Positions 1 through 20,554 of a stretch of DNA of 53,966 nucleotides are shown one piece after another. Below the pieces are notes generated by a model. That model was not told where the DNA came from. It saw nothing but the letters and a program-made list of their open reading frames with translations, and ran no database searches. The stretch is from Streptacidiphilus anmyonensis (lineage in GTDB: Bacteria > Actinomycetota > Actinomycetes > Streptomycetales > Streptomycetaceae), in assembly GCF_000787855.1 (NCBI RefSeq), contig NZ_BBPQ01000017.1:21159-75124 (forward strand), written 5' to 3'. The position numbers were made by a program, and so were the translations under genes. How positions within the stretch are numbered: position 1 is the stretch's first letter; every line of letters starts with the position of its first letter.

Positions 1-1842
1 TTGGGCGGCGGGTGTCGTTGGGGTCGGGGTGGGGCGTGGTGCGGCGTCCTGTCCGGGGCGGGATGCGGGGGGCTGCGCCCGGCCTGGCTCCGAGGCCCCG
101 CCGGAATGTGGGCCCGAGGCCGCCTGGGCTGAGCCGTGGACCCGGTCCTGCGCGGGCTCCTGCGCTGCGCGCGGTGCAGGGGAATCGGCCGGGCGGGGCT
201 CGGAGTCCTGGGCGGGGCGTGGCGGCCGGGTCTGCTTGGGGAGGGACCCGGCCGCGAGAGTAGGGGTGCGGGTGCCGTTGGGGGAGGCGGGGGCCGGGGG
301 CGCGGGTCTCGCGTCGGGGTCGCCGGGCTCCGCGACCGCCGGGGCGGTTGCCGCCAGCGGGACGGCGGCGAGGCGTTCCAGCGCCTCGACGAGGGCTGCG
401 ACCGCCGTGCGGGACTCCGCGGCGGAGGCCAGCAGGCGCTGCTCGGAGGCGAGTTCGCGTTCGAAGCCGCGCTCGCGGGCGCGCTCCTGGCGTGCCAGGA
501 GGCCGTCGAGGGTGTCGATGCGGTCGGCCAGAGCGCCGCTGCTGCGCTGCACCTCCGCGTAGAGGGAGGCGGCGAGCGCGGTGACCGCCGCCTCGTAGAC
601 GGTGCCGATGTGCTCGGCGCCGGAGTCCGCCGCGTCGGCGAGGCGGTCGGGCAGGGCGGCGACGTCGCGGCCGAGCGAACTCGCCGCGTCGCCGAGAACC
701 GTGCTGGAGCCCTCCAACGCCGCTCGCGCCGAAGCGAGTTGGAGGCTCGCCTGTTCCGCCTGGCGTTCCGCCCGCTGATCCGCCTCGGTCAGCCGCTCGG
801 CGAGGAGCCGGTCCATCTGCTCGGCCCGTTCCTGGGCCTGCTGCGCCAGGAGGTCCAGTTGGCGGGTGCCGCGCTCCGACGCCGTCGCCATCACGGCGTC
901 GAAGCGGTCCGCCGCGCGTCCCGCCGCGTCGGTGAGGCTCTGGCCCATCGCGGTCGACGCCTCATCCGCCGCCCGGGACAGGGCCGACGCGGTGGCGCTC
1001 ACGCTGTCGCCGAGCCGCGTGGTCTGCTGCTCCAGTTCGCGGGTCGCCGTCGTGGCCTGTTCGGCGCTGTCGGCGATCCGCCGGGTGTCGTCGGCGAGCG
1101 AGGTCGCGGCGGACCGGAGCGCCGTGCCCGCGAGGGCTATCTGTTCGGTGGCCTCCACCGTGCGGTCCAGCAGGGCGGCCGTCCGCGCGTCCGCGACCGC
1201 GGCGAGCTTGAGCAGTTCCCGCAGTTCGGCTGCCGAGTCCTGCAACTGCCGCACGAAGGTGACCGGTTCGGTGTGGGCGGCGGCGGTGGCGCGGGCCTCG
1301 GTCTCGGCGAGGGCGCCGGCCAGTTCGCGCAGCAGCTTGCGGTCGTCCTCCTGGTCGCGCTCCTCGACGGCCTGCCGCCACAGGGTCAGCGCGACCAGCG
1401 CGGCCAGCAGCACCACCGTGTACAGCACGAGGAAGTCGAAGCGCAGGAAGGCGATCAGGTGGCCGCCGAAGCCCTGCTGCCACAGTTCGAGGAAGGTGCC
1501 GGTCGGGTGCGCGGAGCGGTCGCGCTGCTCCGCCCGGTAGGCGAGGACCGCCGCGCCGAGGCCGGACCAGGTCAGCAGCAGCGGCAGGAAGACCAGGACC
1601 GAGGAGGCCAGCCCGGCCCTGCGGGCCCACACCGAGGATCTTCGGCTGCCTGGTGCGAGCGCCTCCGGCCCCGCGTGGGCCGCGGCGAGACCGCCGCTCG
1701 ACCACTGCGACAGACCCGTTCCGGACTCGACCGCGCGGGCGAGTCGTCCCAGCAGGGGGCTCACCGCCGCCAGGCGCGGCTCCCGCGCCAGCGCGTCGAG
1801 TCTTCGTGCAAGTGTCCCGCTGTCCGGAACCTGAAGTGCCAT
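1..1842 (-). CDS. Two-TM coiled-coil protein, partial at left edge
   Basis: The frame reads from ATG at 1842 to base 1 without a stop: 614 codons are visible and the C-terminus lies outside the window. A GGGAGG sits about 8 bases before the ATG. Residues 1-75 are a short cytosolic-looking segment. Two hydrophobic helices follow, about 78-101 and 133-155, joined by a polar loop. From about 156 to 500 the chain is Ala/Glu/Arg/Gln/Leu rich with heptad-like spacing (for example QQAQERAEQMDRLLAERL), so a long coiled coil is predicted. From about 505 on it is a Pro/Ala/Thr tail. The shape, membrane anchor plus long cytoplasmic coiled coil, recalls chemoreceptor-like or scaffold proteins, but I see no HAMP or methyl-accepting signature, so function is unknown. 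It is divergent from the TIR/CHAT set and could be a membrane partner of it; that is inference. Confidence 0.85.
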   Translation of the reverse strand, partial: MALQVPDSGTLARRLDALAREPRLAAVSPLLGRLARAVESGTGLSQWSSGGLAAAHAGPEALAPGSRRSSVWARRAGLASSVLVFLPLLLTWSGLGAAVLAYRAEQRDRSAHPTGTFLELWQQGFGGHLIAFLRFDFLVLYTVVLLAALVALTLWRQAVEERDQEDDRKLLRELAGALAETEARATAAAHTEPVTFVRQLQDSAAELRELLKLAAVADARTAALLDRTVEATEQIALAGTALRSAATSLADDTRRIADSAEQATTATRELEQQTTRLGDSVSATASALSRAADEASTAMGQSLTDAAGRAADRFDAVMATASERGTRQLDLLAQQAQERAEQMDRLLAERLTEADQRAERQAEQASLQLASARAALEGSSTVLGDAASSLGRDVAALPDRLADAADSGAEHIGTVYEAAVTALAASLYAEVQRSSGALADRIDTLDGLLARQERARERGFERELASEQRLLASAAESRTAVAALVEALERLAAVPLAATAPAVAEPGDPDARPAPPAPASPNGTRTPTLAAGSLPKQTRPPRPAQDSEPRPADSPAPRAAQEPAQDRVHGSAQAASGPHSGGASEPGRAQPPASRPGQDAAPRPTPTPTTPAAQ

Positions 1843-2020: not shown

Positions 2021-2383
2021 TCAGCAGCCGGGAAGGGAGATGCCGGTGAGGTCGCTCAGGCGCTGCCGGGTCTCCTCGCTCAGCGTGGCCAGGGCGCCCA
2101 ACCCCACGGTGAGCAGCACCTGTTGCAGCGCCTCCCGGACCGGCCTGGAATCGGTGTCGCGGCGGTCGGCGGCGGTCCACAGCAGTTCCAGTCGCACGCG
2201 CAGGTCCTCACGGGACGGCGCCGTCAGGTTCGCCCACAACGACCGGATCTGGCCCTGTAGTTCGTGGATGGCGGCGATGTCGGCGTCCACGCAGGACGCC
2301 GCCGGGGTCTGCGCGCGGCCGGGTGTCCGGTCCTCCGCCGCTTCGGGGTCGCCCGCGTCCTCGTGCGCGTTCTCGTGCTGCAC
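2021..2383 (-). CDS. Unknown 120-residue protein
   Basis: I chose GTG at 2383 because AAGGGA lies about 6 bases upstream and because the frame further upstream reads as Arg-rich, non-protein-like sequence. The first 30 residues are acidic and polar (QHENAHEDAGDPEAAED). The rest, about 31-120, looks helical: AAIHELQGQIRSLWANL, a middle segment with VRLELLWTAAD, and a C-terminal LTVGLGALATLSEETRQRL. That last part resembles the short C-terminal helix pair of small actinobacterial proteins found beside regulators, but I do not recognise the family. It is transcribed away from the double-HTH regulator at 2521, with a 137-base shared promoter region, so co-regulation with that cassette is plausible. 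No membrane segment or catalytic motif is visible. Confidence 0.6.
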   Translation of the reverse strand: MQHENAHEDAGDPEAAEDRTPGRAQTPAASCVDADIAAIHELQGQIRSLWANLTAPSREDLRVRLELLWTAADRRDTDSRPVREALQQVLLTVGLGALATLSEETRQRLSDLTGISLPGC

Positions 2384-2411
2384 GGCGTGTCCCTTCGCTC
2401 GTTCTCGGTGT

Positions 2412-2437
2412 CTCCAACGTAGGGAGCCGAGTTGGAG
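2412..2437. promoter_or_regulatory. Inverted repeat between divergent genes, possible operator
   Basis: CTCCAAC at 2412-2418 and GTTGGAG at 2431-2437 are perfect 7-base inverted arms separated by 12 bases. They lie in the 137-base interval between the minus-strand gene starting at 2383 and the HTH regulator starting at 2521. The centre-to-centre spacing of the arms is about two helical turns, as expected for a dimeric HTH protein. The obvious candidate binder is the neighbouring regulator itself; this is inference from position and symmetry only. Confidence 0.4.
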
Positions 2438-2520
2438 CCGGACAGCGTTGCCCGTCTCCACTCGCCGTGCCGGCGGGACCGGGCCGTGCGAAGGAGGCAC
2501 GAGCGTCGAAAGCCGAACGT

Positions 2521-4068
2521 ATGCTCATTTTCGTGAACCGATCGGATCGCGAATGCCCTGCGCCGCCAAGTGGCGGCCTGCGCGCACGACGTGAGGCCGC
2601 CGGTCTGAGCCTCCAGGGCCTCGCCGTGCGCAGCGGCTACAGCAGGTCGTACCTGAGCCGGGTAGAGACCGGACGCCGGGCGCCGACGCCCGCCGTCCTC
2701 CGGGTCTACACCGAGCTGCCCCTGGCGGAGACCGGACGCCGACGTCCGGCCGAGCCGCCCGGTCGGCCCGCCGCGGCCGGGCCGCGCCCGCGGCTGTCCG
2801 CGGACGGCGCGGAGCTCGGCATCACCTGGTTCGGTTCGGAGGTGCGGCGGCTGCGTATGGCGGCGGGCAAGTCCCTCGACGTCCTCGGTTGCGAAGTCTT
2901 CCTGTCCCGGCCCTACTTGGGGAAGATCGAGCAGGGCGACGCCCGCGGGAACTACCAGCTCGCGCTCTCCCTGGACGCGGCTCTCGGCGCGCAGGGCCGC
3001 CTCACCCGGCTCTTCCTGGAGGAGTGCGCGCGGGTCGGTCCGGTGGCCCCGGACACGGACATCCTCTTCCGCGGGCCCCGGTCCGAGCCCGAGCGTGCCA
3101 CCGGGGCCGCCGCGGACCCGGCCGAGCGCGCCGCTGCGGCCGCCGCACGCCTGGAGGCGCTGCGGGTCCGCAGTCACCGGAGCGGACCGCACTCCATCGT
3201 GGGCGAGCTCGGCGACGGCGTCGTCGAACTCCACCGCCTCGTCGACGGCGCCGGCCACCGCCCGCCCTCTCCCGCCAACCCTGCCTGGCCGGTGATGCTC
3301 CGTTACGCCGAACTGCTCGGCTGGACGGCGCAGGAGACCGGACACGACGCGATAGCCCTGCGTTGGACGCATACGGTGGGCGACTGGGCGCGCGCGCTCG
3401 GGGATGCCGACGCGCTGGGCTACGCCCTGATCCGGCACTCCCAATGGGCCCGGCGGCGCGGGGACGCGGGGACGGCCGTCGAACTGGCCCGCCGGGCCGG
3501 ATCCGTCCCCGGGATCGCGCCGCGCATCGAGCAGTTCGCCGCGCAGCGGGAGGCGCAGGCGTGCGCACTCGCACGCGACGAGACCGGGTTCCGCCAGGCC
3601 CTCGACCGCTACCACACGCTCCTGGCGGCGCCTGCGTCCGGCGGGTCGTCCGCGGAGCCCACGCCGTGGGGTCCTGCGCCGGACCCGGTCTTCGAGGGCT
3701 CCCGTCTCTTTGAGGCGACCTGCCTGGTGGACCTCGCCGACTTCCGCACCGCCGCGTCGCTGTTCGATCGGGGCATGAGCCGCCTCGGCGCGCCGCGCAC
3801 CGGATACGCCCGGCTCGCCGTCCGGCAGGCCATCGCCTGTGCGCACGTCGGTGAACTCGACCAGGCCTGCCACGTCGTGCGGGAGTCCCTGCCGACGGTG
3901 TCCCGCCAGGGGTCGGCGTCCCTGCGCGGTGATCTCAAGCTGCTGATCCGGGTCCTGAACCGGCACCGCCGCTCGTCCGCCGTCCGTGCCCTGCTGCCGG
4001 ACCTGACGTCCGTCGCACGCGTCACCGGCGGGACGCGCGCCGCCGCACCCGCCGCCGAAGGCCCCTGA
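2521..4068 (+). CDS. Double XRE-type HTH regulator with TPR-like C-terminus
   Basis: A 515-residue protein. Two helix-turn-helix domains of the Cro/C1 (XRE) type are visible: residues about 18-67 (REAAGLSLQGLAVRSGYSRS then LSRVETGRRAP) and about 104-162 (VRRLRMAAGKSLDVLGCEVF then LGKIEQGD). The rest, about 190-515, is a string of Ala/Leu/Arg-rich helical hairpins such as DADALGYALIRHSQWARRRG and LFEATCLVDLADFRTAASLF, as in TPR/solenoid sensor domains of Streptomyces regulators. The start at ATG 2521 is uncertain: the nearest good Shine-Dalgarno, GAAGGAGG, is over 20 bases upstream, but the first HTH begins soon after this ATG. Two HTHs in one chain is unusual for XRE proteins. It ends 25 bases before the TIR gene, so it probably leads and controls that operon. 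Confidence 0.85.
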   Translation: MLIFVNRSDRECPAPPSGGLRARREAAGLSLQGLAVRSGYSRSYLSRVETGRRAPTPAVLRVYTELPLAETGRRRPAEPPGRPAAAGPRPRLSADGAELGITWFGSEVRRLRMAAGKSLDVLGCEVFLSRPYLGKIEQGDARGNYQLALSLDAALGAQGRLTRLFLEECARVGPVAPDTDILFRGPRSEPERATGAAADPAERAAAAAARLEALRVRSHRSGPHSIVGELGDGVVELHRLVDGAGHRPPSPANPAWPVMLRYAELLGWTAQETGHDAIALRWTHTVGDWARALGDADALGYALIRHSQWARRRGDAGTAVELARRAGSVPGIAPRIEQFAAQREAQACALARDETGFRQALDRYHTLLAAPASGGSSAEPTPWGPAPDPVFEGSRLFEATCLVDLADFRTAASLFDRGMSRLGAPRTGYARLAVRQAIACAHVGELDQACHVVRESLPTVSRQGSASLRGDLKLLIRVLNRHRRSSAVRALLPDLTSVARVTGGTRAAAPAAEGP

Positions 4069-4093
4069 GAAGACAACCGAGGAGCAGCCGTCC

Positions 4094-4717
4094 ATGGCCG
4101 TCCGGAGGCACCTGATCTTCATCAACTACCGTGGATCCGACCAGAACTGGGCCACCGAGCTGGTCTACGCCCGGATGACGGAGGCGTTCGGCGTCGACGC
4201 GGTGTTCAAGGCCGGCAACGCGATCCGCGTCGGCGAGGCGTTTCCGCCGGTCCTGCGCCGACAGGCGGCCGCCTCCCCCGTCATGCTGGCCTGCATCGGC
4301 CCGGGTTGGCTCAGCGCGGGCCCACCCGGCGGCGGACGGAGCCTCGACTCGCCGGACGACTGGGTGCGGCGGGAGATCGCGATCTCGCTCGCGGCCGGGA
4401 ACCACGTCGTGCCCCTGCTGATCGGCAACCACGACGAGGTGGGCGTCCCGGCCGCCGACAGCCTCCCCGAGGACATCAGACCCCTGGTGTACCACCAGGC
4501 CTGGCGTCTCGCGCCCGGCGCCGGTCTCGACGTCACCGTCCCCATGCTCGTCGACCGACTCGCCGAGCTCGTCCCGGAGTTGGGCGAGCGCCGAGCCGGG
4601 GTCGGCACCGGTGCTGCTGCCGACCCCGGTGCCGGCAGCGCGCCGCGACCGCGCGCGGCCGAGCCCGCACCGCTGAGCCGCGCCCTCGACGACGTGGACC
4701 ACTACGGCGACTGGTGA
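4094..4717 (+). CDS. TIR-domain protein
   Basis: A 207-residue protein starting at ATG 4094 after GAGGAG. The N-terminal 140 residues form a TIR domain: beta-A/box 1 is LIFINYRGSD (7-16); a helix TELVYARMTEAFG follows; then a BB-loop-like AGNAIRVGEAF (40-50), strand VMLACIGPGWL (63-73) and the segment DDWVRREIAISLA (88-100). The last closely matches the region of SARM1 that carries its catalytic glutamate (DWVHKEIVTAL), so Glu94 is the likely NADase residue. Known bacterial TIR domains cleave NAD+ or make cyclic ADP-ribose signals; which applies here is not visible. After about 160 the tail is Ala/Pro-rich and ends DDVDHYGDW. There is no membrane segment. It lies 44 bases before the next gene in what looks like one operon with the CHAT protease. 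Confidence 0.9.
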   Translation: MAVRRHLIFINYRGSDQNWATELVYARMTEAFGVDAVFKAGNAIRVGEAFPPVLRRQAAASPVMLACIGPGWLSAGPPGGGRSLDSPDDWVRREIAISLAAGNHVVPLLIGNHDEVGVPAADSLPEDIRPLVYHQAWRLAPGAGLDVTVPMLVDRLAELVPELGERRAGVGTGAAADPGAGSAPRPRAAEPAPLSRALDDVDHYGDW

Positions 4718-4761
4718 CAGCGCGACACCCCCGCAGCCACCCCACACCCTACGGAGCCGCG

Positions 4762-5547
4762 ATGAGCACAGCAGCACGGAGACCAGGCGAACCGGCCGGG
4801 TTGCACGCCTTCCTCGTCGAAGCGGATCCGTCCCCCGTCGGCGGGGCCGAACGGGCCGACGGATCGGACAAGGCCGACGGAAACGCCGCGCCGCTGGCCG
4901 AGCGCGCCTTCTACTTCGACCCTGAGGCGCGCGGCGTCCGGTCGCGCTTCGTGGCCGCCGGCGGCGTCGCGTTCAACCGGGCCGTCCCCTACCGGGTGCC
5001 GATCGAGGACCTCGAACCGATGGCGCGCCGCCGCGAGAACGCCGACGAACTACGCCTGGAGCTGCTGAAGTTCCACTTCACCGTCCGTGAACTGCCGCGC
5101 GGCAGCAGCTACGAGACGGTCCGGATCCGCATCACCCTCGATCCGCCCCACCCCCTGATGCAGTTGCGACCACGCGACGAGAACGCCCAGAGGCAGCAGA
5201 CGCAGTCCTTCAGCCAGGACGTCGAGCCGGCGCTGCTGAAGCTGATCCAGCTCAACCTCAAGTACAACTCCACGACGAGCGTCAACCTGACCGACACGCG
5301 GCCGGTGGTCACGGCGCTCGATCTCAACGCCGAGGGCTTCGGCTGGACGTACCAGGCGCAGAACGGCGCTCCGCTCTCGCCCGGACTGCGGCAGACGATC
5401 GCGGTCCTCGAACTCGCCCCGGGCACCCGCGAGATCACCGGTGTCTTCGACGCCGAAGCCACGGTGACGCGGCGGCTGCTCGGCCTCGTCGGCCGCAGTT
5501 CCACGGTGCCGGCGCAGCCGCCCGTCCCGTTCCGCATCACGCTGTGA
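4762..5547 (+). CDS. Unknown 261-residue protein in TIR-CHAT operon
   Basis: It starts at ATG 4762, with an ACGGAGCC just upstream. I do not recognise the family. Residues 1-45 are Ala/Gly/Asp-rich. From about 48 on there is an alternating hydrophobic/polar pattern typical of beta structure: FYFDPEARGVRSRFVAAGG, then FHFTVRELP, YETVRIRITLDPPHPL, a polar stretch DENAQRQQTQSFSQ, LDLNAEGFGWTY and a C-terminal FDAEATVTRRLLGLVG. The residue pattern suggests two beta-sandwich-like halves flanking a helix (ALLKLIQLNLKYN). No transmembrane helix, Cys pair or nuclease motif is visible. Its stop overlaps the start of the CHAT gene by four bases (GTGA), which implies translational coupling and matched amounts. 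It could be an adaptor, a sensor, or the substrate of the CHAT protease; I cannot decide between these. Confidence 0.8.
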   Translation: MSTAARRPGEPAGLHAFLVEADPSPVGGAERADGSDKADGNAAPLAERAFYFDPEARGVRSRFVAAGGVAFNRAVPYRVPIEDLEPMARRRENADELRLELLKFHFTVRELPRGSSYETVRIRITLDPPHPLMQLRPRDENAQRQQTQSFSQDVEPALLKLIQLNLKYNSTTSVNLTDTRPVVTALDLNAEGFGWTYQAQNGAPLSPGLRQTIAVLELAPGTREITGVFDAEATVTRRLLGLVGRSSTVPAQPPVPFRITL

Positions 5548-8500
5548 ACGGGTCGCGCGTGTCAGCGGCGGCGGAGGCGGGGGAGGAGGAGTTCCTCGCC
5601 CGGCTGCGGCGCATCGGCGAGGACCCCTCGGGCGAGGGCGCCGCGGATCCGGCCACCGCGCGCGCGGCCGGGCGGTTCCTCCGGCGTGAGTACCGGGAGC
5701 ACGGCGGCGTGCGCCCGGCGGCGGCCTACCCGCTCGGGCTCTACTACCTGCGCCACAGCGTGGCGCGTGGAGTCTGGCCGCGCCGGCCGGCGCGCGAGAT
5801 CGCCGTCGGACTGCTGACCCCGATCTTCTTCGCCGACGCGGAACCCGTCCCCGCCGACCTGCTTCCGGTGGTGCTCGCCGAGGCCCGGAAGCGCGCCGCA
5901 CGCGCGCTGCGCGCCGCGCTGGGCACGGGCGATCCGGACCAGCTCGACGGGGTCGCCGCGCAGTGGCGACGCATCGCCGCCGTGACGCCCTACGACGCGG
6001 CGGAGGCCGTCGACGTCGCCGAAGGACTCGGCGTCGCCCTGGCCAACCTCTTCGACCACACCGGCGAGAGGGCCGAGCTCGACGACGTCGTCGCCTTCTG
6101 CCGTCCCGTGCTGGAGCATCTGCCGGCGGGAGCGTCGCCCGGCCCGGTGCGCGTCATCCTGGCTACCACGATCGCGGTGCGCTGCGAGCGGTTCGGCTCC
6201 TTCGACCTCGTGGGCGATCTGGACCAGTCCATCGCACTGATGCGCGCCGAGCTCGCGATCCGCGAAGGACGCGACAGACCGCCGCTGCTGTCGTCGCTGG
6301 CCGCCGTGTACCTGAGCCGGGCCGAGTCGGCCCAGGATCCCGCCGACGTCGACGAGGCCGTCGCTCTGGCCCGTCAGGCCGTCGAGCTGGCCGGGCCGCG
6401 CCACCCGCTGCGATCGTCACTCGAAGCGAGCATGACCGCGGCCCTGTTGGCGCGATACCACCTGTGCGGAGATCCGGCCGACCTCGCCGAGGCGCTCACC
6501 TTCAGCGCCGGGGCCGACACACCCGTCGGCACGGGTTCCGTCTCCTCGGTCTCGGGCGGGCGCATCGCCGCGGCGCTCGCTCTGGGGCAGAGCGCACTGG
6601 CGGACAGCGCGTCCCCGGACCTCGACCGCGCCGTCGAGCTGCTGCGCACCGCCGCGTCCGACCTTCCGGACGCCAGTCCGGTCAAACCGCAGCTGCTGCA
6701 GACCCTCAGCGCGGTGCTGCGGCACCGCCACATCGTCGGGAGCAGCGCGGCCGACCTGGACGCCGCCGTCGACGTCGCCCGGCTCGCGGTGACCGTGGAG
6801 CAGAACGCCGACCCGCGTAACCGGGCCAAGGCGCTGTCGTGGCTGAGCTGGTTGCTCGGGGCCCGGTACGAGGAGGCGGGTGATCCGCGCGACGCCGACG
6901 CCGCGGTCGCGGCGGGCCGGGAGGCCGTCACCCACGTTCCGGTGGAGGAACTGCCTGCCGCCTCCGCCTACTACTGGGGCCTGGTCCTGGCGCTGCGTTG
7001 CCAGCACCCCGGCCAGGCGGCCGAGACGCAGGAGGCGCTCCAGGTCCTGCGGCGGCTCGCCACGTCACCCGGAACGCCTCCCCGGTTCCGCTCCGGCGCC
7101 ACGATCGGTCTGGCCCAGACGCTGCGTCAGCGCGCCGACCGCACCGAGGCCGACCTGGACGAGGCGGTGGAACTGCTACGGCGGGTGCGGGCCGAATGGG
7201 ACGCGGAGACGTACCATCGCGCGCTCGTCGAGCACAAGCTCGCCGGCGCCCTCGCCGAGCGGTTCGCCGAGCGGGGGTCCCGGCAGGACGCTGCCGAGGG
7301 CCTGGCGCTGCTCACCCGGAGCCTGCACCTGACGCAGGTCCCGGTCGGCCTGCGGCTTGAGGCCGCCGTCACCGCGGCCGCGCTGGAGGAGAAGGTCGGC
7401 GCGCCGGGCTGGACCGCGCGGGCCGCGGACCGGCTGGCGGCGGCGGTGGACCTGCTGCCGCTGACGGCCGCCAGGACACTCCACCGTGCGGACCGGCAGC
7501 GCCTGCTGGGCGAGTCGTCCGGACTCGCCGCCCGCGCGGCCGCGTTCGCCCTGGCGGACGAGCGGCCCGGCGAGAGCCCCGGGCAGCGCGCCGCCCGGGC
7601 GCTCGGCCTGCTCGAAGCGGGCCGCACCGTGCTGCTGAACCAGGCCTACGACACCCGTGGCGACCTCGACGGCGTCCGGCGCGCCGCCCCCGGGCTGGCG
7701 CGCCGCTTCCTGGAGCTGCGCGAGCAGTTGGACCGGTCGGACCTGGAGACGCTCGGCGACGCAGCGGCGGCGCCCTCGTCCGGGGCCGTCGTCGGCACGG
7801 CAGACGCCGGCCGGGCGGGCACCGGCACGGCGGGCGTGGCCACGGCCGCGCAGGTGCTGTCCTTGGAGGAGGCCGCCGGTGACCGACGCCGGGCCGCTCT
7901 GGCGTTCGCCGAGGTCGTCGAGCAGATCAGGGCACTGCCCGGTCAGTCCGGTTTCATGCGCGCCCCCGACGCGGCGGAGCTGACCGCACAGGCGGCCCTC
8001 GGCCCGATCGCCGTGGTCAACGTCGCCGAACTGCGCAGCGACGCTTTCCTGGTGACCTCAGCCGGGATCCGGGCGCTGCGCCTGCCCGCCCTGACCGTCG
8101 ACGCGGCGACCGAGGCCGCCGAACGTCTCCACCGGGCACAGGAGACGTCGGACTCCGACGAGATGTTCCGCGTACTCGGTTGGCTGTGGGACGCCGTCGC
8201 CGGGCCGGTCCTGGACGAGCTCGGCCTCGACCGCGCGCCGGGGCCGGACGGGCTGTGGCCCCGCGTCTGGTGGGTGGCCAGCGGCGTCCTGGCGAACATG
8301 CCGCTGCACGCGGCGGGGCGCTACGCCGCCGGATCGGCCGCGAACCCAGGCGGCGATGGGGACCGGCCGCCGGAGTCGGTGCTCGACCGGGTGGTGTCGT
8401 CCTACGCCCCCAACGTGCGCACCCTGCGGTACCTGCGCGAGCGCTCCGCCCGGTCCGCGGCCCGCTCCCGCCCCGACCGCGGGAACCTCGTCGTGGCCAT

Positions 8501-9155
8501 GGGCAGCACGCCGGGCAGTCGGCTGCGCGATCTGCCCAACGCCGAGGCGGAGGCGGACTTCGTCGCCGGACTCCTGCCTAGGGCCGTCCTGCTCACGCAC
8601 GGGACGGGAGCCGGCGGAACGCGGCCCGACGGGACGCGCACCGCAGCGCCGACCACCGCAGCGCCGAGCACCGCAGCGCCGACCACCGAGGCGCCGACCA
8701 GCGAACGCGTACTCGCCGAGCTCGGGCGCAGTCGGATCGCGCACTTCGCCTGCCACGCCGAGGCCGACACCGCGGACCCCTCGCGCAGCGGCCTGCTCCT
8801 GCTCGACGGGCCGCTGACCGTCTCGGCCCTCGGCGCGGAGGATCTCGAGTCGGTCGAGTTCGCCTTCCTGTCGGCCTGCGGCACCGCCCTCAACCGGGCT
8901 CGGGACCTGCTGGACGAGTCCATCCAGCTCGTCTCGGCGCTCCAACTCGCCGGCATCCCGCAGGTCGTCGGGACGCTCTGGGAGGTCGAGGACTTTCCCT
9001 CGCTCGCCGTGGTGCAGAGCTTCTACACCAGGCTGGGCGCGGAGTTCGACCCCTCCGCGGTCGCGCTGACGCTGCACGGGATCACCCGCCTCGTGCGCGA
9101 CGAGTGGCCGGACGCCCCGGGGATCTGGGCGGCGCACATGCACGCCGGATGCTGA
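5544..9155 (+). CDS. TPR-CHAT caspase-like protease
   Basis: A 1203-residue protein. GTG 5544 overlaps the upstream stop (GTGA); GTG 5559 is an alternative. Residues about 1-760 are TPR/alpha-solenoid repeats with recurring blocks such as DLDEAVELLRRVRAE and DLDRAVELLRTAASD. The C-terminal part, about 780-1203, is a CHAT domain: the His motif IAHFACHAEAD (His1071, with His1067 nearby) and the Cys motif FLSACGTA (Cys1112) give the caspase/gingipain-type dyad, followed by VGTLWEVEDFPSLAVVQSFY. TPR-CHAT proteins in other systems are proteases switched on by a partner, for example the one in type III-E CRISPR. A Thr/Ala/Pro linker of four tandem repeats lies at about 1033-1052, just before the His motif. 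There is no signal peptide. Being last in the regulator-TIR-unknown-CHAT set, it is the likely effector; the activation route is unknown. Confidence 0.92.
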   Translation: MNGSRVSAAAEAGEEEFLARLRRIGEDPSGEGAADPATARAAGRFLRREYREHGGVRPAAAYPLGLYYLRHSVARGVWPRRPAREIAVGLLTPIFFADAEPVPADLLPVVLAEARKRAARALRAALGTGDPDQLDGVAAQWRRIAAVTPYDAAEAVDVAEGLGVALANLFDHTGERAELDDVVAFCRPVLEHLPAGASPGPVRVILATTIAVRCERFGSFDLVGDLDQSIALMRAELAIREGRDRPPLLSSLAAVYLSRAESAQDPADVDEAVALARQAVELAGPRHPLRSSLEASMTAALLARYHLCGDPADLAEALTFSAGADTPVGTGSVSSVSGGRIAAALALGQSALADSASPDLDRAVELLRTAASDLPDASPVKPQLLQTLSAVLRHRHIVGSSAADLDAAVDVARLAVTVEQNADPRNRAKALSWLSWLLGARYEEAGDPRDADAAVAAGREAVTHVPVEELPAASAYYWGLVLALRCQHPGQAAETQEALQVLRRLATSPGTPPRFRSGATIGLAQTLRQRADRTEADLDEAVELLRRVRAEWDAETYHRALVEHKLAGALAERFAERGSRQDAAEGLALLTRSLHLTQVPVGLRLEAAVTAAALEEKVGAPGWTARAADRLAAAVDLLPLTAARTLHRADRQRLLGESSGLAARAAAFALADERPGESPGQRAARALGLLEAGRTVLLNQAYDTRGDLDGVRRAAPGLARRFLELREQLDRSDLETLGDAAAAPSSGAVVGTADAGRAGTGTAGVATAAQVLSLEEAAGDRRRAALAFAEVVEQIRALPGQSGFMRAPDAAELTAQAALGPIAVVNVAELRSDAFLVTSAGIRALRLPALTVDAATEAAERLHRAQETSDSDEMFRVLGWLWDAVAGPVLDELGLDRAPGPDGLWPRVWWVASGVLANMPLHAAGRYAAGSAANPGGDGDRPPESVLDRVVSSYAPNVRTLRYLRERSARSAARSRPDRGNLVVAMGSTPGSRLRDLPNAEAEADFVAGLLPRAVLLTHGTGAGGTRPDGTRTAAPTTAAPSTAAPTTEAPTSERVLAELGRSRIAHFACHAEADTADPSRSGLLLLDGPLTVSALGAEDLESVEFAFLSACGTALNRARDLLDESIQLVSALQLAGIPQVVGTLWEVEDFPSLAVVQSFYTRLGAEFDPSAVALTLHGITRLVRDEWPDAPGIWAAHMHAGC
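8640..8699 (+). repeat. 15-bp tandem repeat inside CHAT gene (4 units)
   Basis: Four 15-base units of the form ACCGCAGCGCCGACC lie head to tail (8640, 8655, 8670, 8685), with one or two changes in units 2 and 4. They are in frame and encode a flexible Thr-Ala-Ala-Pro-Thr type linker within the CHAT domain, between its first half and the catalytic His motif. Copy number probably varies between strains. Confidence 0.85.
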
Positions 9156-11293: not shown

Positions 11294-12856
11294 TTGAGCA
11301 GCACAGCCGGCGGCACATCATCCCGATATCTGGTCCTCGCGGCGATGATCTTCGCCGTCGCGATGACGTTCATCGATCAGACCATCGTGTCGATCGCGGT
11401 GCCCGAGATCCAGCGCGAACTGGGCCTGTCCGCCACCGGCGTGCAGTGGGCGGTCAACGCGTACCTGCTGACCTTGGCCGCCTTCTTCGCCTTCGGCGGA
11501 CGCCTGGCCGACACGGTGGGTCACCGCAGGATGGTCGTGCTCGGCGTGGTGGTCTTCGCCGGGGCCTCGGCCTGCTGCGGGTTCACTCCCAAGGGCGGGT
11601 TGGCGGAGGGCTGGCTGATCACCTTCCGCGCCGTCCAGGGCGTCGGCGGCGCGATCATGTTCCCCGCGGCGCTGGCGATCGTGGTCCAGAGCTTCGCCCT
11701 GCGGGAACGGGGCCGGGCCCTGGCCCTGTTCTTCGGCATCGCGGGCGGACTGACGGCCATCGGGCCGGTCCTGGGCGGCTACCTGACCCAGTGGACCTGG
11801 CGTGCCATCTTCTGGGTCAACCTGCCGGTGGCGGCGATCGCGCTGATCCTGATCGCCGTCTCCAAACCGGAGACCGAGAGCCGGCCGGCCCGGATGGACT
11901 ACCGCGGCCTGGCGCTGATCGCGGGCGGGGTCGGGCTGAGCGTGTTCGGCTTCCAGCAGTCGCAGACGTGGGGCTGGTCGAACCCGGCCATCGGACTGTG
12001 CATCGCCCTGGGCGTACTGCTGCTGGTCGCCTTCGTGCTGGTCGAGAAGCGCACCGAGTCGCCGCTCATCCAGGTGGACATCTTCCGGATCCGGGCCTTC
12101 GCCGCGCAGAACCTCGTGCTCGGCATCTCCATGCTCGTCTTCGTCCCGGTCTTCTTCTTCTCCAGCGAGTACGCCCAGATCGCCCTCGGCGACTCCTCCT
12201 CGGAGGCCGGCATCTTCCTGCTCTACTTCTTCATCGGCTTCGTGATCGCGTCCCAGCTCGGTGGTCGCATGCTCGACCGGATCGGCGCGAAGCGACCGGT
12301 GGTCCTCGGCTGCGTGCTGGCCGCCGTCGGGTTCTACCTGTGGGCGCGCAACGCGACCACGCTCAGCTTCAGCTCGCAGCAGTGGGACGTCATCCTGGCC
12401 GGGGCCGGGATGGGCTTCATGCTCAGCCCCGCGAGCACGGACGCGGTCAACCGGGCGTCCCGGCTGTCCTACGGCGAGGCGACCGGCATCACCCAGACGG
12501 TCCGCAACTACGCCGCGAGTCTCGGGCTGGCGATCCTCGGGACCGTGCTCGTCACCGACCTGCGCTCCCAGGTCACCGACTCGCTGGTCGGGCAGGGCGT
12601 GCCGCCCGCACAGGCGGCCTCGCAGGCCGCGCACCTGTCGCAGCTCCAGGCCAGTGGCAGTTCGAGCACCGCCGCGATCCCGCACTTCTTCCGTGTCGAC
12701 TTCGCCCACGCCACGCAGACCGTCCTGTACTGGATGGCCGCCATCATGGCGGTGGCCGCCCTCGCCGCGATCGTCGGCCTGCGGCCGGGCCTCCAGGCCG
12801 ACAGGCCGGTCGAGGAGCCCGCCCCGATGACGGCCGAGCGGAACCAGGGCCCCTGA
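11294..12856 (+). CDS. DHA2-type MFS drug exporter
   Basis: A 520-residue multidrug exporter of the EmrB/QacA (DHA2, 14-TM) family. I chose TTG 11294: CAGGAG lies 7 bases upstream and the frame above it only encodes the 9-base repeats. Motif evidence: first helix VLAAMIFAVAMTFIDQTIVS with the DHA2 DxTIVxxAxP pattern, GGRLADTVGHRRM (motif A between TM2 and TM3) and GGLTAIGPVLGGYL (motif C of antiporters). The length fits the family. It acts in the cytoplasmic membrane, exporting hydrophobic compounds by proton antiport. There is no TetR-type regulator beside it; the divergent neighbour is a membrane protein. A second DHA2 exporter lies at 48642. Confidence 0.9.
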   Translation: MSSTAGGTSSRYLVLAAMIFAVAMTFIDQTIVSIAVPEIQRELGLSATGVQWAVNAYLLTLAAFFAFGGRLADTVGHRRMVVLGVVVFAGASACCGFTPKGGLAEGWLITFRAVQGVGGAIMFPAALAIVVQSFALRERGRALALFFGIAGGLTAIGPVLGGYLTQWTWRAIFWVNLPVAAIALILIAVSKPETESRPARMDYRGLALIAGGVGLSVFGFQQSQTWGWSNPAIGLCIALGVLLLVAFVLVEKRTESPLIQVDIFRIRAFAAQNLVLGISMLVFVPVFFFSSEYAQIALGDSSSEAGIFLLYFFIGFVIASQLGGRMLDRIGAKRPVVLGCVLAAVGFYLWARNATTLSFSSQQWDVILAGAGMGFMLSPASTDAVNRASRLSYGEATGITQTVRNYAASLGLAILGTVLVTDLRSQVTDSLVGQGVPPAQAASQAAHLSQLQASGSSSTAAIPHFFRVDFAHATQTVLYWMAAIMAVAALAAIVGLRPGLQADRPVEEPAPMTAERNQGP

Positions 12857-13240
12857 CCCTCGCGTGCGGTGACGCTGACACGTCAGCCGCCGACCACGGC
12901 CGGCGGACGCCGGGAGCTGGGTGACTCGGCCGGGCGAGGACGGCACGCGGGCGTGGCCCGGTCGCCCGGCAGACCCGAACGCCCCGGGCGGCGTCCGTCG
13001 ACCGGGCCGCGTCGAGACGCCGCTCCGGACCGTCGTCCCGGCACGGCCGACGACGTGAGCCCGTAGGGGGCGAGCCGCGCCGGGCGCCGCGCCCAGGCCG
13101 TGAAGGTTCCGCTGTCGCCGTGGCCGCCCGAGGCGGCGAAAACCGGTGGAGGCGCCGGGCGGTGCGCCGCTACGCTGCCCCGCGATGATGACTCCTTCCC
13201 ACCACAGAATGGGGGTCCCGTCCGCGCAAGGTGAGTGCTG
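12857..13240. other. 384-bp intergenic region without a supported gene
   Basis: Open frames here on either strand are Arg/Pro/Gly-rich and look like G+C artefacts. The only structure seen is a near palindrome GCTGACACGTCAGC around 12875. The promoter for the three-gene MoxR module must lie in this stretch, but I cannot pick out a convincing -10/-35. Confidence 0.6.
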
Positions 13241-14605
13241 ATGGCCACTCCACCCGCGAACGGGGACGTTCGAACCCCCTCCTGGCGGCTCCACCTGTGG
13301 AGGCGCGTACGCGAGTTCGCCGTGCCGCCGCCCATGATCGCGAGCGCGAGCGCACGCCGTTCCGTCGGCGACTGGGCGGGCGCGTGCGCGGCCGCCCGCG
13401 TGCACGTCGACCTCGACCTCCGGGACGTCGCCCGCCGACACGGTCGCGAGCTCGCCTCCCGGATCCGCGCCGACCTGCGGTCGCTCGCCCCCGACCTGCT
13501 GCGCTGGCACCTGCCGCGGAGCGCCCCGCACGGCTTGCTGCGGCCCGGACTGACCGTCAGCCTTGCACGCTACGCGCCGACCGACGTGGCCGCGCCGCTG
13601 CCGCTGCATCTCGTGGCCCGGACCCCGCCCGGGTGGGCCGACGCCGGGCAGTGGTTCAGCCTCGCGCTGTGGGACCCGGCCCGCCCGCACGTGGACGCGG
13701 GCCTGCACCCGCACCCGCATCCGAGCCGTCGGTTCCGCCTCGACCTGCACCGGCACCTGTGGGATGCGGGCGCGAGCCACGCGTTGCGGGCCCGCTCCGG
13801 AATCGACCGTCCTGACCGACCCGCCCTGGACCGGTGGGCGTCGGAGGCGGAGCTGCTGCTCCGCGCCGACGGTCGCGGAAGCGGACGCCTCGGGGTGCGG
13901 CTCGGCTCCCGAACGCTGCTCGTCCTCGGGCGGACCGCCGCCGCATCACCCGTCGTCTCGGCCTCCGCGGAGGCGGGCGATCACGCGCTGCCACTGCTCC
14001 CCGACGCGGCGACCTGGGCGACGCCCGACGTGGAGCTGCTCCGCGCGGGTTTGATCGAGCCGGAGGCGCTGCACCCGCTCGTGGCCGCCGCTTTGGCGCC
14101 GGGACGTCCCGCAGCCGCGCCTGAAACAGCCGCCGCCGCGGGCGAGAGGGAGCAGGCGCGCCCGCACACCGTCGAGTGCGGGGGAGCTCGGCACCGGATC
14201 GCCGTCGTCGACGGCGTGCTGGCGCCGTTGGACCACGACGCTGACGAGCTTCGTCGGGAGGAGTTGCTGGCCGCCCTGTCCGGCACACCGCTTCCCTGCC
14301 TGCGGGCCATCGACCAGGCGCACCGCGACCCGGCGTCACTGGACGACGTCCGGGGCCGACTCGACCACGGCGACGTCGACGGTGCGATCGCCCTCGTCAC
14401 GTCCCTGCTCGGCCCCGACGCCGTGCTCCGCGACGGCGCGCTCAGGGACGAGTTGGCCGCGGCCGCGCTGCGACGGGTCGATCACGGCCTCTACCGCGCG
14501 GGCCTCGCCCCCTCGCAGGCCAGACCGCTGCCTCGCCCGGCCCGCCGGGACGACCCGCTTCGCCGCGCGCTGCGCACCCGCCCGCGCGACGGCCTCCGCC
14601 GCTGA
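13241..14605 (+). CDS. Unknown 454-residue protein heading MoxR/VWA module
   Basis: ATG 13241 follows AAGGTGAG with good spacing; GTG 13235 is an alternative. I do not recognise a named domain. Residues about 25-75 (MIASASARRSVGDWAGACAA then a VDLDLRDVARRHG block) resemble a motif I associate with Streptomyces hypothetical proteins encoded beside MoxR/VWA pairs. A middle part is Arg/His/Trp-rich (WFSLALWDPARPHVDAGLHP), followed by beta-like stretches (ELLLRADGRG, RTLLVLGRT). A C-terminal segment (about 300-415) has RHRIAVVDGVLAPLDHDADE. No membrane helix or nucleotide-binding loop is seen. It is 62 bases before the ATPase, so it is probably in the same operon and may be the client or target-recognition part of the module (inference). 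Confidence 0.75.
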   Translation: MATPPANGDVRTPSWRLHLWRRVREFAVPPPMIASASARRSVGDWAGACAAARVHVDLDLRDVARRHGRELASRIRADLRSLAPDLLRWHLPRSAPHGLLRPGLTVSLARYAPTDVAAPLPLHLVARTPPGWADAGQWFSLALWDPARPHVDAGLHPHPHPSRRFRLDLHRHLWDAGASHALRARSGIDRPDRPALDRWASEAELLLRADGRGSGRLGVRLGSRTLLVLGRTAAASPVVSASAEAGDHALPLLPDAATWATPDVELLRAGLIEPEALHPLVAAALAPGRPAAAPETAAAAGEREQARPHTVECGGARHRIAVVDGVLAPLDHDADELRREELLAALSGTPLPCLRAIDQAHRDPASLDDVRGRLDHGDVDGAIALVTSLLGPDAVLRDGALRDELAAAALRRVDHGLYRAGLAPSQARPLPRPARRDDPLRRALRTRPRDGLRR

Positions 14606-14667
14606 CCGACCGGTACCGCCCCCGCGCCCCGGGCGCTCCCACGCTTCGACCGAACAAAGGTGATCTC

Positions 14668-15912
14668 ATGCCCTCCTCCGCTCCCGTCTCCCAACTCGAC
14701 GTCGCAGACGAACTGCTGGCCCTGCTGACCGACAGCACCACGGAACCCCGAGACGACCGGCAACTCGAAGCGCTCACCCTGGCCGTGGCGGCGGACCTGC
14801 CCGTGCTGCTCTGGGGCGAGCCCGGAATCGGCAAGACCGCCGCCCTCACCCAGCTCGCCGCGGCGCTCGACCTGCCGCTGACCACGGTCATCGCCAGCGT
14901 CCACGAGCCCTCCGACTTCTCCGGGCTGCCGGTCGTCGGGGACGACCCCGCCCGGCAGGGCGTCCCGCTGGCCCCGCCCGACTGGGCGGTCCGCCTGGTC
15001 CGAGCGGGAAAGGGCCTGCTCTTCCTCGATGAGCTCTCCACCGCGCCCCCGGCGGTCCAGGCGGCGCTGCTGCGCCTGGTGCTGGAACGGCGCGTCGGCT
15101 CGCTGCAACTTCCGGCCGGTGTCCGCATCGTGGCCGCCGCCAACCCGCGTGCCTCGGCTGCCGACGGCTGGGAGCTCAGCCCACCCCTGGCCAACCGCTT
15201 CGTCCACCTCCAGTGGACGCACGACCACGACGTCGTGGTCCGCGGCCTCGGCGGCACCTGGCCACGGGCCGATCTTCCGCGTCTCGCCCCGGAGCGGTTG
15301 CCCGAAGCGGTGGCCCTGGCGCGGCGCGCGGTCTGCGGGCTGCTCGCCGTCCGGCCCGGGCTGGTGCACCGGCTCCCCGAGAACGAGACCCGCCGGGGCG
15401 GCGCCTGGCCCTCGCCGCGCAGTTGGGAGATGACGCTGCGTCTGATCGCCTTCGCCACCGCGGCCGGCTCGTCCAGGGATGTGCTCTCGCAGCTGGTCCG
15501 GGGCACGGTCGGCGACGGCCCCGGGCTGGAGTTGCTCTCCAGCATGGACCGGATGGACCTCCCAGACGCCGAGACGCTGCTCGCCGACCCGGAGGCGGCC
15601 GTGCTGCCCGAGCGCGGCGACCTGCGTCAGGCCGTGCTGGACGCCGTGGTCGCGGCGGTCCGCAGCCGTCCCGAGCCGGCCCGTTGGGACGCGGCCTGGC
15701 GGCTCCTGGTCCGGGCCGTGGAGACCGGCGCGCCGGACCTGGTCGTGGTCCCCGCGACCACGCTCGCCTCGCTGCGGCGGGAGGGTTGGAGCGTGCCACC
15801 CGTCATCGACGCGCTCGCCGGGGCCGTCTCGCTCTCCCGGCGTGCCGATCGCGCCGCGGCCGCCGCGCTCGCGAAGCCCGGCGCGGCCTCGGGAGCGGGG
15901 GCGGCCCGATGA
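14668..15912 (+). CDS. MoxR-type AAA+ ATPase
   Basis: A 414-residue AAA+ protein starting at ATG 14668 after AAGGTGA. Walker A is GEPGIGKT (50-57), Walker B is LLFLDELSTAP with Asp121-Glu122, and sensor-1-like IVAAANPRAS follows. The pattern FSGLPVVGDDPARQGVPLAP between them is typical of MoxR-class ATPases, which act as chaperones that load or remodel partners of VWA proteins. A C-terminal helical lid and an Ala-rich tail end the chain. Its stop overlaps the next start as ATGA, so the two proteins are made together. The ATPase-VWA pairing matches the RavA-ViaA/MoxR-CoxE style of organisation; the client here is not known. Confidence 0.88.
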   Translation: MPSSAPVSQLDVADELLALLTDSTTEPRDDRQLEALTLAVAADLPVLLWGEPGIGKTAALTQLAAALDLPLTTVIASVHEPSDFSGLPVVGDDPARQGVPLAPPDWAVRLVRAGKGLLFLDELSTAPPAVQAALLRLVLERRVGSLQLPAGVRIVAAANPRASAADGWELSPPLANRFVHLQWTHDHDVVVRGLGGTWPRADLPRLAPERLPEAVALARRAVCGLLAVRPGLVHRLPENETRRGGAWPSPRSWEMTLRLIAFATAAGSSRDVLSQLVRGTVGDGPGLELLSSMDRMDLPDAETLLADPEAAVLPERGDLRQAVLDAVVAAVRSRPEPARWDAAWRLLVRAVETGAPDLVVVPATTLASLRREGWSVPPVIDALAGAVSLSRRADRAAAAALAKPGAASGAGAAR

Positions 15913-17144
15913 GCGGTGCGACCCGCACGGCCCCGGCCCTGGACCTGGACAAGCTGTACGCCGCGCGTCTGCACGCGGCGCGGGCCCGGCCCTATCTCGC
16001 CACGGCGCTGTTCGCCCTCCAGTTGGTGGAGTCGCGCGGCACGCCCACCATGGCGGTCGACCGGTACTGGCGCTGCTACGCGTCGCCCGCCTTCGTGGAC
16101 CGCACGCCGGAGGTGGAGCTCGCCGCCGTCTGGGTGCACGAGGTGTCCCACCTGCTGCGCGACCACCACGGCCGCAGCGACCGCTACGCCTGCGCCCACG
16201 GACTGACCAGTCCGGCCGAGCGCCTGCGGATGAACATCGCCGGAGACTTCGAGATCAACGACGACGCCTTCGGCGACGGCCTGGTCCGCCCCGAGGGCGC
16301 CGTCGTGCCCCGGATGGCACAGCTCCCCGAAGGCTGGTTGATGGAGTCCTACCTGGCCCACCTCCGGCTCGGCTCCTTCCCGCGCGACCTCGCGTGGCTC
16401 GACTGCGGCAGCGGCGCCGACGGGCTCGACCGTTCCTGGGACCTCGGCCCGGGCGGGGCGCACGGACTGAGCGAGCAGGAGCGCGACGCCGTGCGCTTCC
16501 GGGTCGCCCAGGGCATCGCGGCCAGGCCCGGCCGCGTCCCGCGCGGATGGCGGCGTTGGGCCGAGGAGGCGTTCCAACCGCCGCAGCCCTGGCGCGAGTT
16601 GCTCGGCGCGGCGCTGCGGGCGGCGGCCGTCGGCGGGGGAGCGGGCGACGACTACAGTTACGCCCGCCCCGCCCGCCGCGCGGCGAGCCTGCCCGGGGTC
16701 GTCCTGCCGGGCCTGCGCCGGATGCCGCCGCGCGTATGCGTCGTGATCGACACCTCGGGCTCCGTCAGCGACGTCGAGCTCGGCGCGGCGGTGCGCGAGG
16801 TCGCGGCGATCTGCCGAGCCGTGGGTGGCCGCAGGGACCTGGTCACCGCCGTGCCCTGCGACGCGGCGGCCCACACGGCTCAGCAGCTGTGCCGGTCCGA
16901 GGGGATCCCCCTCGTCGGTGGCGGAGGCACGGACCTGCGGGAGGGCTTCGCACGCGCCCTGCGTGCCCAGCCCGCCCCGGACGTCGTCGTGGCCCTCACC
17001 GACGGCCAGACCCCGTGGCCGAGCCGTCGGCCGCCCTGCCGCACCGTGATCGGCCTCTTCCCCCGCAGCGGCTACAACGAGGACACCGACTACGAGCCCG
17101 CCCTGCCGCCGCCCTGGGCTCGGGTGGTGGAGATCCGCAGCTGA
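15909..17144 (+). CDS. DUF2201-like metallopeptidase/VWA-like protein
   Basis: A 411-residue protein whose ATG overlaps the ATPase stop by four bases. The N-terminal half carries HEVSHLLRDHHGRSDR (His77 to His81), an HExxH zinc motif, and a downstream MNIAGDFEINDD that fits a third ligand region, as in the putative metallopeptidase domain of DUF2201 proteins. The C-terminal part is VWA-like: CVVIDTSGSVSDVEL has the MIDAS DxSxS at Asp281, and GGGGTDLREG and ALTDGQTPWP supply later metal-site positions. No signal peptide. Such proteins always sit next to a MoxR-like ATPase in the genomes I know. Peptidase activity itself is inferred, not shown. Confidence 0.87.
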   Translation: MSGATRTAPALDLDKLYAARLHAARARPYLATALFALQLVESRGTPTMAVDRYWRCYASPAFVDRTPEVELAAVWVHEVSHLLRDHHGRSDRYACAHGLTSPAERLRMNIAGDFEINDDAFGDGLVRPEGAVVPRMAQLPEGWLMESYLAHLRLGSFPRDLAWLDCGSGADGLDRSWDLGPGGAHGLSEQERDAVRFRVAQGIAARPGRVPRGWRRWAEEAFQPPQPWRELLGAALRAAAVGGGAGDDYSYARPARRAASLPGVVLPGLRRMPPRVCVVIDTSGSVSDVELGAAVREVAAICRAVGGRRDLVTAVPCDAAAHTAQQLCRSEGIPLVGGGGTDLREGFARALRAQPAPDVVVALTDGQTPWPSRRPPCRTVIGLFPRSGYNEDTDYEPALPPPWARVVEIRS

Positions 17145-17619
17145 GTGGGCGAGGCCCGGCGGTAGGACCGCCCTGCCCGGTGGCCCCATGCGGCGGGAAT
17201 CGTCTCCGGGCGCGGTCCGGACCACCCGTTCCGGTCCGGCAGCTGCCCTCTGGCGTGGGGGCGCACCGTTCCTGCCCCGGGGCCCGCCTCCCAGCCGGAG
17301 GCCGTGGGAGAGGTGCCCCGCCGTCTCCCGCCTCCTGGGTGCCACGGCCCCAGGGCGCGGCCGAGGCCGCCCGCCCCAGTCCTGCCGCCCTGTCACGTCG
17401 GGGTGCATCGGCACCCGCCCCGGGTCTCGATTCCCGGCCGGAGGCCGTTGCCTGGACCCCGAGGCCCGTGGCATTCGGGCGCGTTCCGCTCCCGGCCAGG
17501 CCCTTCGCGTGCGGGCGGGACCGGAAAGGCGGAGGCTGGAAGGCAGACGCGCGCCGGAAGACCGTCGTGGCCGGGGTGTCGCGCGACGGCGTCGGGGCCG
17601 AGGAACGAGGGCGGATCCC
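17145..17619. other. 475-bp intergenic region without a supported gene
   Basis: Open frames here are Arg/Pro-rich artefacts. There is a small perfect hairpin GGCGGT-AGG-ACCGCC at 17158-17172, just after the module's stop, as a weak terminator candidate. I saw no promoter motif that I trust for the hemerythrin gene downstream. Confidence 0.55.
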
Positions 17620-18258: not shown

Positions 18259-18357
18259 ACCGTGCGTCGGATTTCGGGGGCTCACTTCGTCATGGGCGTT
18301 TGCGTCGGCCTGGCCGGGTCAGACGCGAGGGGACCACGACGAGGAAGGAGCCCTCGC

Positions 18358-18930: not shown

Positions 18931-18946
18931 CCTGTTCGGGCACTGA
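18915..18946. repeat. Perfect 16-bp tandem duplication over stop codon
   Basis: CCTGTTCGGGCACTGA is repeated exactly at 18915-18930 and 18931-18946. The first copy contains the TGA stop of the membrane protein gene, so the second is untranslated. This looks like a recent replication-slippage duplication. Confidence 0.9.
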
Positions 18947-18988
18947 CGCACCGAGCCGGGCGTCGTGGCGTCGTCGCGAGCCACCGGA

Positions 18989-19022
18989 GGACGGCCACCG
19001 CGTCGCAGCGCGGTGGCCGTCC
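18989..19022. terminator. Strong hairpin terminator candidate
   Basis: A perfect 14-base stem (GGACGGCCACCGCG with CGCGGTGGCCGTCC) closes a 6-base loop, TCGCAG. It lies downstream of the small membrane protein gene and before the dehydrogenase promoter. There is no U-run, as is common in Streptomyces. Confidence 0.75.
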
Positions 19023-19128
19023 GCTGCCGCCTTGCGGATCAGCCCGTTCGGCCGGTTGCAGTCGGGCGCATCCTGATCGAGAGTCAAGGAGGTCAGGAAG
19101 CCACCGCAGAGGAGTGAGGGGAATCCGA

Positions 19129-20526: not shown

Positions 20527-20554
20527 CGGTCGCCCCGCAGTGGGCCGGCTCCGG

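Follow-up and report, generated by a model that had tools for sequence, protein, structure and literature searches.

A TIR and CHAT protease locus of Streptacidiphilus anmyonensis organized around a conserved protein that may couple signal enzymes to proteolysis

The window analysed here, a stretch of 53,966 nucleotides from Streptacidiphilus anmyonensis (contig NZ_BBPQ01000017.1, positions 21,159 to 75,124), carries near its left end four genes on the forward strand. They encode an NsdA-family regulator with two XRE-type helix-turn-helix (HTH) stretches (P0001, 2521..4068), a TIR-domain protein (P0002, 4094..4717), a CHAT-associated protein without family match that we call X (P0003, 4762..5547), and a 1203-residue CHAT protease, a caspase-like enzyme of clan CD (P0004, 5544..9155). 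The first three genes are separated by gaps of 25 and 44 bases and the last two overlap by 4 bases; coordinates, strand and spacing had been listed in an earlier note on this DNA and were all correct on recheck. As judged by sequence comparison, the four-gene arrangement is not due to chance, because it is kept in another genome of the genus and the order recurs in a genome of another family (G454; G numbers denote genomes, G000 being that of the window). Wherever we located X it had a CHAT-type gene close by, and it is repeatedly fused to TIR or cyclase-like domains, which suggests that X may connect enzymes that make nucleotide signals to a protease.

The two HTH stretches of P0001 match Pfam HTH_31, and the NCBIfam NsdA family recognizes the protein at 95.6 bits, above the cut-off of 75. 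Its earlier description as a double-XRE/TPR regulator holds for the HTH stretches; for the TPR part, Pfam gave no match in P0001 at an expect value (E) of 1 or lower. The same applies to the “TPR-CHAT” protease: P0004 has a C-terminal CHAT domain (Pfam, 1.2e-34) whose His1071 and Cys1112 fall on the His/Cys pair of Csx29, and Pfam TPR was again not found at E ≤ 1. The TPR label rests on the name of the NsdA family (“TPR-like”) and on some of the CHAT relatives, and the long N-terminal region of P0004 is without Pfam match. P0002 matches Pfam TIR_2 (34 bits, cut-off 28) with no second domain matched. The catalytic-type glutamate noted earlier for this TIR is Glu94, which in a weak alignment (E 0.064) corresponds to the Glu of the SARM1 motif DWVHKEI, the catalytic Glu of SARM1. 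X was rightly called an unknown protein, since searches of Pfam, NCBIfam and PADLOC with P0003 gave nothing at E ≤ 1. Eleven members of the X family likewise gave no significant Pfam match (four families match one member each, E 0.049–0.14) and no NCBIfam match, and X was not found among PDB sequences.

Profile searches recovered relatives of X in 9 of 394 class genomes with a three-row profile, in 5 of 35 genomes of family f20 with an eleven-row profile and in 9 of 372 order genomes, in samples that overlap and with only a few candidates scored per genome. A single-sequence search gave matches in three of 391 order genomes (G000, G266 and G081), of which G081 (E 9.2e-4) was dropped as chance, since the hit lies in a lipoprotein-like frame without matches to the other cassette proteins. 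Together with G394, which was added from the genus genomes, 17 distinct loci were obtained (G000, G394, G454, G515, G630, G680, G614, G550, G416, G004, G266, G221, G058, G188, G294, G105 and G177), the weakest matches at first finding being those of G004 (5.3e-5), G177 (8.9e-7) and G105 (6.5e-7; E for one genome). A search of plasmids yielded no X, and TIR in 4 records at 30–37% over 64–77%.

At all 17 loci a CHAT-type gene lies within 3 kb of X, and at 11 of them it adjoins X directly. The distance is 1.6 kb in G614 and 1.0–3.0 kb in G058, G188, G294, G105 and G177, where a caspase gene, a CRP-like gene or both stand between; these five loci, which belong to the window’s own family, also hold a Peptidase_C14 caspase. 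The CHAT model of Pfam is matched at 16 of the 17 loci, with G221 just under the cut-off of 24 at 23.9 bits. The G614 gene scores 28.4 bits as protein and 22.3 in another search, and the G680 contig breaks off within a gene that has a match to the N-terminal region of CHAT proteins. CHAT genes were counted in 11 genomes, which contain 2–10 each, and the one near X was recovered in all of them except G680; from these numbers, the chance of finding one within 5 kb is 0.2–1.1% per genome. As a separate observation, in G058 and G177 (L081, L085) an X-cyclase fusion is clustered with CRP-like, caspase C14, ~1250-residue CHAT and DO-GTPase-like genes, giving two clan CD proteases per locus; the DO-GTPase-like gene is a Pfam match in G058 and a similar-looking gene in G177.

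An enzyme of nucleotide-signal type is present at 15 of the 17 X loci, a TIR at five and a cyclase-like domain at ten. The TIR is separate from X in G000, G394 and G454 and fused to it in G004, where the fusion partner is a TIR of the CAP12/Pycsar type (Pfam 2.8e-22), and, by sequence, in G221. The class-III-cyclase-like domain is separate in G515, G630 and G680 and fused to X in seven genomes (G550, G416, G058, G188, G294, G177 and G105), the fusion in G105 having been read by eye across a masked stretch within the domain, with a different frame on its two sides. Counting G105 across this stretch, nine of the 17 loci have X fused to one or the other of these enzyme domains. Together with the CHAT-type gene near X at every locus, the fusions lend good genomic support to a link between signal enzyme and protease. 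Of the set TIR, unknown and CHAT, which the earlier note had suggested looking for across actinobacteria, the pairing of X with CHAT is conserved, and the P0002 TIR is replaced by a cyclase-like domain in most relatives found.

The profile of the cyclase-like domain reaches the cyclase Ma1120 (E 0.0014), with no related Pfam family matched. Most rows contain the metal-type aspartates, and the Asn of Asn-x3-Arg, the usual cyclase motif, is absent. At nine of the ten cyclase loci a CRP-like regulator is encoded up to ~8 kb from X, the tenth locus, in G680, lying on a 9.5-kb contig. The stretch GE-x-A...R-x-A-(T/S)-V, which we take to be the motif of the cyclic nucleotide monophosphate (cNMP)-binding cassette, is kept in all nine CRP-like regulators and in G490. 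An NsdA-like regulator occurs at the three loci with a stand-alone TIR and is missing, by profile, from the remaining 14; at the loci with X-TIR fusions (G004 and G221) neither an NsdA-like nor a CRP-like regulator was found by profile. The exchange of TIR for the cyclase-like domain therefore goes together with that of the NsdA-like for the CRP-like regulator, and this paired exchange offers a direct test of which signal each enzyme makes.

The order of the window is found again in G454, a member of family f20, where regulator, TIR, X and CHAT genes lie on one strand. BLASTP identities to the window proteins are 68% for the regulator, 77% for the TIR (169 residues) and 37% for X, and the CHAT match of G454 is marginal (24.1 bits, cut-off 24; 28 bits in another search). 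There too the cassette is divergent from a GTPase/Hsp70-like unit, in that genome accompanied by DUF4407, and the Hsp70-like proteins of G000 and G454 share 32% identity over 645 columns (E 2e-55). With a TIR profile, a sample of 347 class genomes gave 434 bits for G000, 418 for G454 and 117 for the next match; both members of the P0002 TIR subfamily in this sample belong to X-CHAT loci. The arrangement regulator, TIR, X, CHAT is present at each of the three loci where the subfamily was located (G000, G394 and G454). Beside the G454 cassette (L020:16231-18717) we also noted an NLR-like protein with TIR_2 (1.7e-28), a weak NB-ARC match and TPR repeats.

Within the genus, Streptacidiphilus melanogenes (G394) has all four genes and P0005, a small gene on the opposite strand (2021..2383), in the same arrangement as G000, and the 4-base overlap of X and CHAT genes is kept. 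A two-peptide pattern scan of named genomes confirmed one TIR of the P0002 type, also in S. melanogenes. The ratios of nonsynonymous to synonymous substitution rates (dN/dS) between the two genomes are 0.26 for the regulator, 0.19 for the TIR, 0.33 for X, 0.39 for CHAT and 0.17 for both P0005 and the GTPase. Because G000 and S. melanogenes are related, their common gene set does not count as independent evidence. Of 14 genus genomes, the same two carry X and the GTPase; a GTPase match in G276 was dropped, as it spans 45 residues only (E 3.0e-4).

A four-gene cassette proved too small a unit, because a GTPase/Hsp70-like unit adjoins it in both families. The earlier note had overlooked this divergent unit, which extends leftwards from ~1842, as well as P0005, the fifth conserved gene. 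The unit comprises, in order, genes for a membrane/coiled-coil protein, a 182-residue membrane protein, a dynamin-like GTPase, an Hsp70-like ATPase and a coiled-coil protein, followed by others up to a gene of 406 residues. Only the N-terminal part of the first of these proteins (~792 residues) falls into the window (1..1842, minus strand), in a frame open from 1842 whose start was placed by homology to G394 and which continues leftwards beyond the window, partly masked there. Its neighbours lie outside the window at G000:C137 ~11,669-20,621. The GTPase matches Dynamin_N (31.7 bits, cut-off 27) and, by profile, BDLP (2j68, E 4e-4). For the Hsp70-like ATPase the profile reaches DnaK (2.9e-8), with single-protein Pfam matches at E 0.04 or worse; membership in SrfB (SrfABC) was rejected (11.2 bits, cut-off 27.1), and an ARAGORN tRNA call inside the G394 gene was taken as false.

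GTPase and Hsp70-like genes adjoin X in 6 of the 17 loci (G000, G394, G454, G515, G630 and G680), in two families. The GTPase profile matches 17 of 388 class genomes; the five full-length matches (E=0) all lie beside X, and the others are G490, G708, G651 and nine weak ones in the P-loop region (E 4.7e-7 to 6.9e-4), with a second weak place in G680. Two further observations concern the surroundings of these genes: in G490 (L056) DUF4407-, CRP- and cyclase-like genes accompany the GTPase/Hsp70-like pair, and G454, G515, G630, G490 and G651 have related genes downstream of their Hsp70-like genes.

Gene content, gene order, conservation, the linkage of X to CHAT and the X fusions are read directly from the genomes, and from them we infer how the locus might work. 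We consider it quite possible, at a little under an even chance, that this is an actinobacterial conflict-type locus, serving immunity or regulated cell death, where X provides the coupling between a nucleotide-signal enzyme and the CHAT protease. The membrane-linked dynamin-like GTPase and the Hsp70-like ATPase would serve as a trigger or threshold driven by nucleoside triphosphates (NTPs). On triggering, the TIR protein would make a nucleotide product from nicotinamide adenine dinucleotide (NAD+), and this product, acting through X or through the long N-terminal region of P0004, would release the CHAT protease. Once freed, the protease would cut proteins of the cell so that growth stops, and the NsdA-like regulator would hold the operon low. 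If X indeed couples signal enzymes to CHAT, it would be a separate, reusable part, comparable to the adaptors of animal cell death, and actinobacterial X-CHAT loci that are so far unannotated would become testable as immune or suicide systems. A wider version of the proposal, which we regard as speculative and on balance unlikely, would make X a general coupling module through which TIR or class-III-cyclase-like enzymes switch on actinobacterial CHAT proteases. TIR with NsdA-like and cyclase with CRP-like regulators would then be interchangeable inputs, a nucleotide made by the TIR would be sensed by the NsdA-family regulator in the way that cNMP is by CRP, and the dynamin-like GTPase and Hsp70-like ATPase would form the gate.

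Several observations speak against coupling through X. In G266 and G614 neither a TIR nor a cyclase-like gene was found by profiles, even at E ≤ 10, with a narrow TIR profile and a Pfam scan that covered some of the genes; X-CHAT may therefore not need such an enzyme. In five loci the protease nearest to X is Peptidase_C14, or another gene intervenes, so that CHAT need not be the only partner of X. Spread over five genera of three families, the 17 loci do not all count as independent cases, and P0004 has no significant BLASTP similarity to the G454 CHAT protein (best E 0.077). The regions read in G490, G708 and G651 (L056, L057 and L058) contain GTPase-Hsp70-like pairs and no X. The SARM1 alignment that points to Glu94 is weak, as its E value indicates, an AlphaFold model of X from two sequences had a mean predicted local distance difference test score (pLDDT) of 31.7 and was not used, and none of TIR, X and CHAT was recognized by PADLOC (2023).

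Could the direction be the reverse, with X restraining the TIR or cyclase and being itself the substrate of CHAT? A trigger would then lead CHAT to cut X, and the freed TIR would deplete NAD+ as the final effector. The position of X in cis with TIR or cyclase-like domains at nine loci is what one would expect of an autoinhibitory domain, the CHAT protein and X evolve faster than the TIR, and the TPR-CHAT protease of Craspase is reported to cut a dedicated partner, Csx30 (PMC9729208). Against this, a cyclase-like partner clustered with a CRP-like regulator makes the enzyme look like a signal maker and not a killer, and we regard the reversed order as somewhat unlikely.

A circuit of development or stress in a multicellular actinobacterium, in which the NsdA-like regulator together with TIR and CHAT would tune differentiation, appears a little less probable still. 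NsdA regulates differentiation negatively, and P0001 scores above the cut-off of that family; the locus is nevertheless patchy (2 of 14 genus genomes), and no island gene lies left of the MoxR locus in the stretches read of G396, G393, G391 and G311. Patchiness and island-free MoxR loci are better fitted by an accessory set of defence type than by a developmental core. TIR and CHAT might, finally, be parallel and independent effectors of one multi-effector locus in which X serves CHAT only, as the X-CHAT pairs found without TIR or cyclase-like gene in G266 and G614 would allow. The fusions of X with both kinds of enzyme domain, and the occurrence of a TIR or cyclase-like enzyme at 15 X loci, make this very unlikely in our view.

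The nearest tested analogue of the proposed coupling is type IV Thoeris, in which the TIR product N7-cyclic ADP-ribose (N7-cADPR) is described to activate a caspase-like protease (PMC12847820), so that TIR-to-protease signalling as such is already known in bacteria. As in that system, a TIR gene is grouped with a clan CD protease gene in a putative operon, TIR_2 and CHAT lying here on one strand with small gaps, and proteolysis in response to a TIR product would be the logic. The present locus differs in its 1203-residue CHAT protease, in the X gene between the two, in the NsdA-like regulator and in the GTPase/Hsp70-like unit. We do not class it as type IV Thoeris, because P0004 matches CHAT and not Peptidase_C14 in Pfam and because that type is defined by its chemistry. 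The PADLOC models of 2023 predate type IV, which dates from 2025.

A second likeness is to the NTP-dependent conflict systems of multicellular bacteria set out by Kaur et al. in 2020 (MoxR-vWA, DO-GTPase/GAP1 and EACC1-caspase systems, and GTPase systems with HSP70 among them; PMC7159879) and in a follow-up (PMC8195603), in which GTPases or chaperone-type NTPases occur with TIR, cyclase and caspase parts. By gene content our locus has both an NTPase switch and exchangeable signal and effector domains, and in G058 X shares its cluster with genes for a DO-GTPase-like protein and a caspase. Unlike in those systems, the GTPase here is dynamin-like, and no DO-GTPase, GAP1, vWA or EACC1 match to Pfam was obtained for five cassette-side and five divergent-side proteins of G000, two left-end island genes lying outside the scan. 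In the main text of PMC7159879 neither “CHAT” nor “dynamin” is mentioned.

CHAT proteases under control are also known from Craspase, in which CHAT (Csx29) is described as inactive until the target arrives (PMC9729208), and SAVED-CHAT has been named as a signal-activated relative (PMC11417357). P0004 shares the CHAT His/Cys pair with Craspase; its score against the NCBIfam model of Csx29 is only 27.3 bits, with a cut-off of 300, and it differs from SAVED-CHAT in that no SAVED domain was matched by Pfam and the signal enzyme is a TIR. A TIR of the CAP12/Pycsar type is carried by two X relatives (G004 and, by sequence, G221) in fusion with X and next to a TPR-CHAT gene, unlike the stand-alone TIR_2 protein of the window. 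The author of the earlier note knew of no described system with this order, in agreement with our search of the open-licence PubMed Central literature: among the matches listed, no such system was found, and neither a domain like X nor such a gene set was named.

The island was taken to extend over about C137:9,605-30,313, ~20.7 kb. On its left, the 406-residue gene at the far end of the divergent side has its only orthologue in G394 (89%) and partial matches of 32–43% in six other genomes. Right of the cassette a MoxR gene has strong matches in 9 of 14 genus genomes. No island gene lies to its left in G396, G393, G391 or G311 (over 16–19 kb or to the contig start), and the genes found there differ in each of the four, which marks a variable spot.

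The cassette and P0005 are separated by a divergent intergenic region of 137 bases (2384..2520), largely conserved with S. melanogenes; a consensus scan for promoters and terminators gave no match. An imperfect palindrome at 2530..2553, over the first codons of P0001, is nearly unchanged in S. melanogenes and is a possible operator. P0005 encodes 120 residues predicted to be all-helical (mean pLDDT 79.2); Foldseek gave 141 matches to PDB folds at E ≤ 10, none of which reached E ≤ 0.001, and there was no significant sequence match. Farther right, a 454-residue gene, the MoxR AAA+ gene and the gene that follows form one locus (window 13235-17000) whose left-hand genes vary. G396 also carries the MarC gene of the window in the opposite orientation, and in G311 three adjacent genes of unknown kind (740, 337 and 1262 residues; L113:3932-10956) lie on the far side of the 454-residue and MoxR genes, a place taken by other genes in the window.

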